Notes under the pieces: generated by a model
The model's database searches: none
What the model saw: only the letters and a program-made list of their open reading frames with translations
Told to the model about the DNA's origin: nothing
Translations under genes and position numbers: made by a program
Source: Zetaproteobacteria bacterium
Lineage (GTDB): Bacteria > Pseudomonadota > Zetaproteobacteria > Mariprofundales > Mariprofundaceae
NCBI GenBank assembly: GCA_021545665.1
Contig: JAJRTX010000001.1
Location: 1 to 5,393, forward strand
Reading direction: 5' to 3'
Length of the DNA stretch: 5,393 bases
Shown here: positions 1,916 to 4,575 of the stretch, in pieces
Numbering within the stretch: the stretch's first letter is position 1
Layout: each line of letters opens with the position of its first letter

Positions 1916-2992
1916 ATGAGTGAAACTGAAACACAAGAACAAACCAGTTGTTGCTGTCACGATAATCAAGCTGTATTTTTAGACCGGGCGATTGATCGAA
2001 TGAATCTCAATATGGCCCAGCGGCAGTTGCTTTTACAGTCATTCCGCGAAGTGTCGGTGCAAATTCCACTTAAAATTCATAATGGTGACACGGAAACACT
2101 ACACACCTTTACCGGCTACCGGGTGCAGCACAATCATGCACGTGGCCCGTTCAAGGGCGGCTTGCGTTTTCACCCTGATGTTCGACTTGAAGAAGTGAGG
2201 GCACTGGCTCAGTTGATGACCTGGAAAACCGCTCTTGTTGATATTCCATTTGGAGGTGCAAAAGGCGGTATTACAGTTGACCCCTCGACATTGACGGAGC
2301 GGGAACTGGAAATCTTGACGCGGAGATTCACGCAAAAAATGTCTCCCATATTTGGTGTCGATGAAGATATACCGGCACCGGATGTTAATACCAACCCGCA
2401 AGTTATGGCATGGATTTTTGACGAATACAGCAAATCCAACGGTCACACTCCGGGCATAGTAACGGGTAAGCCAATAGAGCTAGGTGGACTGGAGGGCCGA
2501 CTGGAAGCAACGGGTTATGGCGTGGCCTATGTAACAGCGATGGCCTGTGATTATCTGGATATTCCCTTGCAGGGCGCAAGCGTGGTTATTCAGGGATTTG
2601 GTAATGTCGGATCATTCGCCGCTCTTCGCCTTGAGGCTATGGGCACCCATATCGTAGCTATTTCTGATATGTATGGCGGTTTATTTAATGCGCAGGGAAT
2701 AAATATTGAATCTGCGATTGAACATGTCCGGAAAACCGGGAGACTGGAAGGATTCGCCGATGCACAGCCTGTGTCGAATGAGTTATTATTGGGGCTGTCC
2801 TGTGATGTGCTGATTCCTGCAGCCCTTGAGGGAACAATCAATTGCGATATTGAAGCAGCTATTCAGGCAAAGCTCATTGTGGAGGCGGCAAATATGCCGG
2901 TCACGCATATGGCAAGTGACAAGCTTCAGAATCGGGATGTTGTTATCATTCCCGATATTCTTGCCAATGCAGGCGGCGTAATAGCTTCGTAG
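1916..2992 (+). CDS. Glutamate dehydrogenase, cut short by in-frame TAG
   Basis: This belongs to the roughly 420-residue hexameric Glu/Leu/Phe/Val dehydrogenase family (GudB/RocG-like), which interconverts glutamate with 2-oxoglutarate and ammonia using NAD(P). Numbering from ATG 1916, the substrate domain has P-F-K-G-G (K80), M-T-W-K-T-A (K104), the P-F-G-G-A-K-G-G signature with catalytic K116, and A-P-D-V-N-T with D156. The nucleotide fold has G-F-G-N-V-G at 227-232. The frame stops at TAG 2990-2992 after residue 358, where relatives continue with Tyr-Phe/Tyr-Glu-Trp. The missing C-terminal segment is still encoded just after it (next entry). AGGAG at 1904-1908 sits 7 bases before ATG 1916 and 4 before ATG 1913; the GTG at 1901 overlaps the ribosome site and is unlikely. 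An odd Cys-Cys-Cys-His cluster lies at residues 12-15. As written, the product lacks the C-terminal helices that pack against the active-site cleft and is probably inactive unless the stop is read through. Confidence 0.9.
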   Translation: MSETETQEQTSCCCHDNQAVFLDRAIDRMNLNMAQRQLLLQSFREVSVQIPLKIHNGDTETLHTFTGYRVQHNHARGPFKGGLRFHPDVRLEEVRALAQLMTWKTALVDIPFGGAKGGITVDPSTLTERELEILTRRFTQKMSPIFGVDEDIPAPDVNTNPQVMAWIFDEYSKSNGHTPGIVTGKPIELGGLEGRLEATGYGVAYVTAMACDYLDIPLQGASVVIQGFGNVGSFAALRLEAMGTHIVAISDMYGGLFNAQGINIESAIEHVRKTGRLEGFADAQPVSNELLLGLSCDVLIPAALEGTINCDIEAAIQAKLIVEAANMPVTHMASDKLQNRDVVIIPDILANAGGVIAS

Positions 2993-3187
2993 TGTGAATG
3001 GGTGCAAAACATTCAACGCTTTTCCTGGGACAGGGATGTGGTTTTTGAGCGGATGGAGTCCCATTTATCCCGCAGTTTTGCCGAAGTTCAACAGTTGGCT
3101 AAGGCCTCGCATGTGGATTTCCGCACTGCCGCCTATGAACTCTCAGTGCGACGAGTGCTGCGTGCTGTTGAGTTAAGAGGGTTTTAA
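2993..3187 (+). pseudogene. C-terminal part of the glutamate dehydrogenase, beyond the TAG
   Basis: Reading on in exactly the same frame after the TAG gives 64 residues ending at TAA 3185-3187. They begin C-E-W-V-Q-N, with a single W-D late in the first helix, then an A-A-Y-E-L-S-V-R-R-V stretch and a final L-R-G-F. This is the standard end of the dehydrogenase family (E-W-V-Q-N ... A-A-Y ... R-V ... R-G). With the TAG counted as one residue the whole protein would be 423 residues, the normal family length. No frameshift or further stop is present. The only in-frame candidate start, GTG 3002, has no ribosome site, so separate translation is unlikely. It is either a remnant of a recently broken gene, a readthrough extension, or the result of a base-calling error at one position. 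Confidence 0.85.
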
Positions 3188-3205: not shown

Positions 3206-3237
3206 TTGACTTGTGTGTAACACATAGGGTGTAAAAT
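3206..3237 (+). promoter_or_regulatory. MerR-type promoter/operator 1, upstream of the YHS-PII-merR operon
   Basis: The -35 box is TTGACT (3206-3211) and the -10 box TAAAAT (3232-3237), with a 20-base spacer instead of the usual 17. Long spacers of 19-20 bases mark promoters activated by MerR-family metal sensors. Inside the spacer is an imperfect inverted repeat, CTTGTGTG-TAA-CACATAGG, ending in GGGTG; its layout resembles known Pb/Cd-type operators (ACT...TAA...AGGGT). The same element recurs at 4544-4575. Confidence 0.85.
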
Positions 3238-3801: not shown

Positions 3802-4134
3802 ATGAAATCAGAATGCATAATGACGATGGGAAAAGTCACAGCTACTTTTCGGCAAAGTATGCTGGGAAAAGTTGAACAAGCACTTCAGGAGCATGGTACT
3901 CATGGTTTCAGCATCACTTCTGTCCAGGGCTGTGGGGAGTATATGAACTACTATAATCAGGATTGTACAAGCAGCCATTCACGTATCGAAATATTTGTGG
4001 AAATGGATAAGGCTGAAGATCTCGCCGATGCGATTATGGAAGCCGCCCACATTGGCCAGCCCGGCGATGGCATAGTGGCGATAATGCCAGTCGAAAAGCT
4101 GTATCATATTCGCACAAAGTCTGAAACTGTGTGA
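3802..4134 (+). CDS. PII-family (GlnB-like) signalling protein, short-T-loop variant
   Basis: This 110-residue protein starts at ATG 3802, with AAGGAG at 3790-3795; the GTG at 3799 is too close to the site. It has the PII length and its C-terminal signature: G85-Q-P-G-D-G-I-V, then P-V-E-K and H-I-R-T. PII proteins are trimers that bind ATP/ADP and 2-oxoglutarate and control partners through the T-loop. Here the T-loop region (about residues 43-61, G-C-G-E-Y-M-N-Y-Y-N-Q-D-C-T) is several residues shorter than in GlnB and cannot be aligned to the uridylylated Tyr. The Lys that normally follows G-D-G is Ile91. Three Cys (5, 44, 55) are unusual. Similar divergent PII proteins are known next to heavy-metal efflux genes (the PII-NG group), so control of a metal transporter is more likely than classic nitrogen control. 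It sits 10 bases after the YHS gene and overlaps merR. Confidence 0.85.
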   Translation: MKSECIMTMGKVTATFRQSMLGKVEQALQEHGTHGFSITSVQGCGEYMNYYNQDCTSSHSRIEIFVEMDKAEDLADAIMEAAHIGQPGDGIVAIMPVEKLYHIRTKSETV

Positions 4135-4547
4135 TGTTTACTGTCAGCCAGTTGGCTGTTCGTTGCGATGTAACCCCTGAGACAGTACGCTATTACACCA
4201 GAGTGGGGTTATTGCATCCAGAGCGGCATCCTGACAATGGATACAAGCTTTTTGAATTTGATGATGTGCAGAAACTCCGTTTTATTCGGCGGGCAAAACT
4301 ACTCGGCTATACTCTGGCTGAAATCGAACAAGTTCTTCATCACAGTATGCAAGGTGATTCTCCATGCCCTATGGTGCGCGATTTTATCCAGCGTCGAATT
4401 GAATCAAACAAGGCGAAAATTAAAGAGTTAACCACTCTGCAAAAACGCATGGAAGCAGCGCTCAAGGCATGGGAAAACAAACCTGACGGCATGCCTGATG
4501 GGCATTCAATCTGCCATTTGATTGAGTCGTTCACAGAAGATGCTTGA
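4134..4547 (+). CDS. MerR-family metal-responsive transcription activator
   Basis: This is a 137-residue dimeric DNA-binding regulator. The N-terminal winged helix-turn-helix (residues 1-70) shows the family pattern V-T-P-E-T-V-R-Y-Y, then G-L-L-H-P-x-R, N-G-Y-K and D-V-x-K-L-R-F-I-R-R-A-K-L-L-G-Y-T-L-x-E-I. A long dimer helix follows (about 80-112). Cys78 (S-P-C-P-M) at the start of that helix and Cys127 (S-I-C-H-L-I-E) in the C-terminal tail match the two thiol positions of CadR/PbrR/ZntR-type sensors, with His124 and His128 as possible extra ligands. The ATG at 4134 overlaps the stop of the PII-like gene (TGATG), so translation is probably coupled; GTG 4131 is an alternative start. The gene is unusual in lying inside the operon it presumably activates rather than divergent from it. 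Its last codons carry the -35 box of promoter 2. The metal specificity cannot be read with certainty. Confidence 0.93.
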   Translation: MFTVSQLAVRCDVTPETVRYYTRVGLLHPERHPDNGYKLFEFDDVQKLRFIRRAKLLGYTLAEIEQVLHHSMQGDSPCPMVRDFIQRRIESNKAKIKELTTLQKRMEAALKAWENKPDGMPDGHSICHLIESFTEDA

Positions 4548-4575
4548 CCTGTGTGTAACACATAGGGTCTAGAAT
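4544..4575 (+). promoter_or_regulatory. MerR-type promoter/operator 2, overlapping the merR stop codon
   Basis: TTGACC (4544-4549) and TAGAAT (4570-4575) are separated by 20 bases. The spacer contains the inverted repeat CCTGTGTG-TAA-CACATAGG (7 of 8 positions pair), nearly the same as in promoter 1; the upstream bases GAAGATGC are also shared. The merR stop codon TGA (4545-4547) lies inside the -35 box. It should drive the second YHS gene and what follows, under the same regulator. Confidence 0.87.

Follow-up and report, generated by a model that had tools for sequence, protein, structure and literature searches.

Is the amber codon within a glutamate dehydrogenase (GDH) gene of a zetaproteobacterium a genuine stop, a codon that is read as sense, or an error of sequencing? 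The gene lies on the forward strand of contig JAJRTX010000001.1, within the 5,393 nucleotides analysed here (the window), in a frame of 423 codons (1916–3187) that has one internal stop and ends with TAA. Because the internal stop, a TAG, is codon 359 of 423 (2990–2992), the frame is not open throughout. Sequence reading revealed a candidate Shine-Dalgarno-like GAGGAG (1903–1908) ahead of the start, which is the ATG at 1913 or at 1916. Pfam profile searches identified both the GDH dimerisation domain (PF02812, 173.6 bits) and the NAD(P)-binding domain (PF00208), as in the Glu/Leu/Phe/Val dehydrogenases of the hexameric GDH type. The 358 codons before the TAG (1916–2989) comprise PF02812 and most of PF00208 (173.8 bits), and the remaining 64 codons plus TAA (2993–3187) match PF00208 positions 180–241 (42.4 bits). 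Since the profile reaches position 177 before the TAG and continues from 180 after it, the register is kept. The earlier note had described a lone amber codon in an otherwise full-length GDH, and this description held. Unlike other members of the family, the frame of the window is closed at codon 359, and the NCBIfam GDH models scored below their own cut-offs with the piece before the TAG, which was the only piece scored.

We compiled a homologue list with the piece before the TAG as query (the best 120 of 8000 scored sequences, P0001 being the window itself). The closest full-length relative, P0002, is 86% identical. Columns were counted over the 115 relatives of at least 400 amino acids, omitting the shorter P0038, P0051, P0057 and P0098. 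At the position of the TAG, 113 of the 115 relatives have Tyr, one has Trp (P0034) and one His (P0047), in agreement with the previous claim of a conserved Tyr site; all four omitted sequences have Tyr as well. The Ser preceding the site and the Glu-Trp following are invariant among the 115, and the column directly after the site holds Phe (78), Tyr (34), Cys (2) or Ala (1). Solved GDHs, of which 6yeh_A, 8owm_A and 1b3b_A are nearest by sequence, read SYFEWVQN here and align end to end with the relatives when P0002 is the query.

The same picture emerged at the level of codons. Among 80 genome loci, whose nearest named members are Zetaproteobacteria and Mariprofundaceae, all 75 that showed the motif carry TAT or TAC at the site. 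Three more (L071, L074 and L079) read SYFEW on inspection by eye, which brings the Tyr codons to 78 of 80; the other two loci stop short of the site, L036 being broken by another sequence and the match in L039 running out together with the locus itself at residue 284. The comparison with close relatives proposed in the earlier note thus returned Tyr codons and no TAG. None of 119 relatives (the best 120 of a larger hit set, window excluded) ends at the site, and none of 120 shorter relatives (likewise the best 120 of a larger hit set) ends at the Ser before it. P0051, P0057 and P0098 (358–365 amino acids) were considered as relatives that also stop here and were rejected, as all three continue past the Tyr; moreover, a query of 358 residues preferentially retrieves pieces no shorter than itself. 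Neither the 239 listed relatives nor the 78 loci that reach through the site share the stop, and the window carries a probably inactivating lesion that has no counterpart in these relatives, as a pseudogene does.

Directly after the TAG, the window has TGT (2993–2995), a Cys codon where 112 of the 115 relatives have Phe or Tyr; the two with Cys are P0034 and P0096. The seven zetaproteobacterial loci read TAT-TTT (4), TAC-TTT (2) or TAC-TTC (1) at these two codons, and the TAG-TGT of the window is two or three substitutions away from all seven. A minimum of two substitutions, a few bases apart, thus parts the window from every one of the seven relatives. The single base change previously invoked accounts for the TAG codon but, given the neighbouring TGT, not for the whole local difference. 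The cluster of Cys and stop is compatible with a stepwise change, with a single double mutation and with a local sequence error. A few relatives, namely P0034 (SWCEW), P0047 (SHAEW) and P0096 (SYCEW), likewise have another pair in place of Tyr-Phe after the invariant Ser. The Trp of P0034 is encoded by TGG, one transition from TAG, and three or more substitutions are needed to reach its Trp-Cys pair from codons for Tyr-Phe. In a quick tree the window pairs with P0002 (SH-aLRT 91), which reads Tyr-Phe, and P0034 falls into another clade; we therefore rejected P0034 as the source of the stop-Cys state of the window.

What the loss of the C-terminus would mean for the enzyme was judged from an AlphaFold2 model of the sister sequence P0002 (30 sequences, mean pLDDT 76.5, pTM 0.79). 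The site corresponds to residue 360 of P0002, inside a predicted helix (353–368) that is followed by helices 374–399 and 403–421; pLDDT is only 67 for the block 361–370. With P0002 as query, solved GDHs align across the same C-terminal stretch. A product of 358 residues would be cut halfway through one helix and would lack the two C-terminal helices; with the loss of these predicted elements, it is probably inactive.

Downstream of the TAG, none of the 17 columns conserved at 90% is violated, versus one of 145 upstream. The earlier view that the 64 codons show no decay is right for these columns but may not extend to private changes. Measured against ten outgroups, the window has four private changes in 358 upstream residues and four in 64 downstream residues (one being the Cys), while P0002 has nine and two, respectively (Fisher's test: 0.02 within the window, upstream versus downstream; 0.32 between window and P0002). 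Identity of the window to P0002 drops from 86.0% upstream to 79.7% downstream; most other pairs listed likewise vary more after the site than before it. Since private changes are uneven within the window but not between the lineages, and most pairs differ more in this part, the downstream sequence shows no clear decay and provides no proof of constraint.

The GDH query matched 11 of 78 zetaproteobacterial genomes, eight at 69–80% identity and three at 39–44%. With the close type in eight of 78 genomes, its distribution marks the gene as accessory in the class. One of the eight close matches (G067) covers only 162 residues and is cut by a contig end. Internal stops were flagged in none of the 11 matches. 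A second sequence of the same population, intact or broken, was not found: the search with the C-terminal piece gave no match, and a 130-residue piece before the TAG gave 1073 matches, the best-scoring of them 60% identical. Plasmid and phage records held no near-identical DNA, and in viral contigs no relative of P0002 was confirmed. In 369 gammaproteobacterial genomes (E up to 1e-100), the gene was detected at 24 places in 23 genomes, with internal stops in one genome, G378 (two TGA). We dismissed these two codons as a sign of recoding, as the frame leaves the family behind NAGGV and enters a sequence that occurs at nine places in that genome, many of them at contig ends, and looks like an insertion element. 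The GDH gene is thus also lost in other carriers, by other means. The break in G378 (L107, contig C52, about 33189–33342) lies right behind NAGGV, near the codon equivalent to the TAG.

On the forward strand the window holds, in this order, the end of an outer-membrane-like protein gene, a 227-codon gene, the GDH gene, a YHS-domain gene, a P-II-like gene, a MerR-family regulator gene and a second YHS-domain gene. Neither of the first two has a Pfam match; the gap between them contains a strong terminator-like hairpin of 12 pairs (1029–1055), listed on both strands. Two MerR-family-type promoters with a near-identical core (TTGACY, 20 bp, TARAAT; 3206–3237 and 4544–4575) precede the first YHS, P-II-like and MerR genes and the second YHS gene, respectively. 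The first of them, of the operator/promoter kind (TTGACT, 20 bp, TAAAAT, forward strand, by sequence), lies just behind the GDH gene and is context, not part of the stop. Similar sites, with three substitutions, stand just before the GDH gene in L001 (GDH at 5920) and L006 (GDH at 6001), so that a single metal-responsive unit may comprise GDH, P-II and YHS proteins. The MerR-type sites recorded in these two loci are at 5816 and 9072 in L001 and at 5926 in L006. The small P-II-like protein (3802–4134) matches PF00543 with 54 bits and falls well short of the NCBIfam GlnB/GlnK cut-offs, and its gene adjoins that of the MerR-type regulator; it may represent a divergent P-II whose surroundings are linked to metals.

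The seven terminal stops of the window, GDH included, are four TAA and three TGA. The earlier note had counted correctly that no gene ends in TAG, but the hint of unusual TAG handling that it saw there is statistically empty: in eight related loci TAG ends 15 of 80 mechanically picked open reading frames of at least 150 amino acids (five of the 15 lie in loci where TAG also closes the GDH gene), and at this rate none in seven is expected by chance with a likelihood of about 23%. The GDH gene itself terminates with TAG in five of the seven zetaproteobacterial loci (L001, L002, L003, L006 and L034), with TGA in L004 and with TAA in L005. Searches for the pyrrolysyl synthetase PylS (TIGR02367) gave sub-cut-off matches in 75 of the 78 genomes of the class and none above the cut-off (maximum 40.6 versus 178.15 bits), which one of 14 control genomes passed; the weak matches are most simply explained as other class II synthetases. 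Among 1,489 codons, the window has 28 TAT and 12 TAC (40 Tyr), 20 TGG (Trp) and one in-frame TAG. It contains no tRNA gene, hence no suppressor tRNA, and no Rfam family at gathering score. Unusual handling of TAG thus found no support in the tests run. Recoding of TAG in the lineage, to pyrrolysine, Tyr or Trp, would agree with its absence from the ends of the window genes, and a TAG within the frame is what pyrrolysine and other amber-recoding systems have. Unlike those systems, the class has no synthetase over the cut-off in the 78 genomes examined and uses TAG as a common terminator, even for this very gene, and a single in-frame TAG beside so many Tyr and Trp codons does not look like lineage-wide reassignment; nor is GDH a methylamine methyltransferase. 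Recoding is already refuted for the class in the genomes examined, and we give it next to no credence.

Of the three options in the earlier note, a recent nonsense mutation fits best. We consider it probable that an accessory GDH gene is present in the window as a private nonsense allele of recent origin, with a product that is very probably dead. A Tyr codon would have changed to TAG in one population, translation should be terminated at it by release factor 1, and the resulting 358-residue protein, with half a helix and two C-terminal helices missing, would very probably not function; the 64 codons behind the TAG would still look coding because little time has elapsed. We infer that the cell really carries this stop, that translation ends at it and that the product is inactive. 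The single lesion with its frame kept, the Tyr codons of the relatives, the ordinary use of TAG as a stop nearby, the accessory nature of the gene, the broken family member in G378 and the predicted fold of P0002 all speak for the nonsense allele. Against it stand the single contig, with the same population not found again, the purifying pattern downstream, which is equally expected under readthrough, the lack of flagged internal stops in the 11 zetaproteobacterial matches, and the rare Cys beside a rare stop, a cluster that an error would produce too. Such an error would mean that a sense codon of the cell appears as TAG through a local miscall in one contig, which perhaps created the neighbouring Cys as well; it is a possible but distinctly less likely explanation. 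It would suit a contig of 5,393 bases that is otherwise free of defects over 1,489 sense codons and has two rare letters within a few bases at a site where none of the 239 listed relatives ends; yet each of the two differences is a substitution that leaves the frame intact, and P0034 and P0096 do have a Cys there, so that one of the two changes is biologically plausible. Belinky et al. (2021, PMC7918605) describe in-frame stops in bacterial genes as widespread, short-lived and mostly polymorphism. The GDH of the window resembles these cases in its single stop, intact flanks and lack of long-term conservation, but that study used only stops common to two or more genomes, to exclude errors, whereas ours is one unreplicated observation. 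Among the papers listed by our literature searches, we saw nothing on GDH stops in Zetaproteobacteria.

Amber readthrough, the remaining option of the earlier note, was unsupported in the tests run. A suppressor or near-cognate tRNA would decode UAG at a low level and throttle GDH, the general code being unchanged. We regard this as improbable, even though the conserved columns downstream are kept. A suppressor tRNA is absent from the window, and TGT GAA after the TAG does not match UAG-CAR-YYA, the leaky stop context known from tobacco mosaic virus; a U after UAG, as here, favours termination. The authors of PMC7918605 make the case that bacterial genes tolerate many in-frame stops, but they required conservation, and none of the 239 listed relatives or of the 78 loci that reach through the site has a stop here. 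Somewhat less credible still is that the site tolerates stops transiently, with low-level UAG decoding preserving some GDH and TAG being a step on the way from Tyr-Phe to, for example, Trp-Cys. On this view the Cys beside the TAG would belong to that path too, and P0034 and the window, which belong to different clades, would represent independent passages. That the 358-residue product works as a protein, alone or together with a restarted C-terminal piece, is very doubtful. In-frame GTG (3002) and ATG (3053) codons could serve such a restart, but by eye no AGGAG-like site precedes the in-frame restart codons listed, none of the 239 listed relatives is split here, and the cut would fall inside a predicted helix.

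Were the stop both real and subject to readthrough, it would provide a natural example of nitrogen metabolism throttled by a stop codon, next to the gene for a P-II protein, but nothing in this analysis points there. With a recent nonsense allele as the best-fitting reading, the finding is an ordinary one, a single broken copy of an accessory enzyme gene on one contig, and as it stands it matters little.
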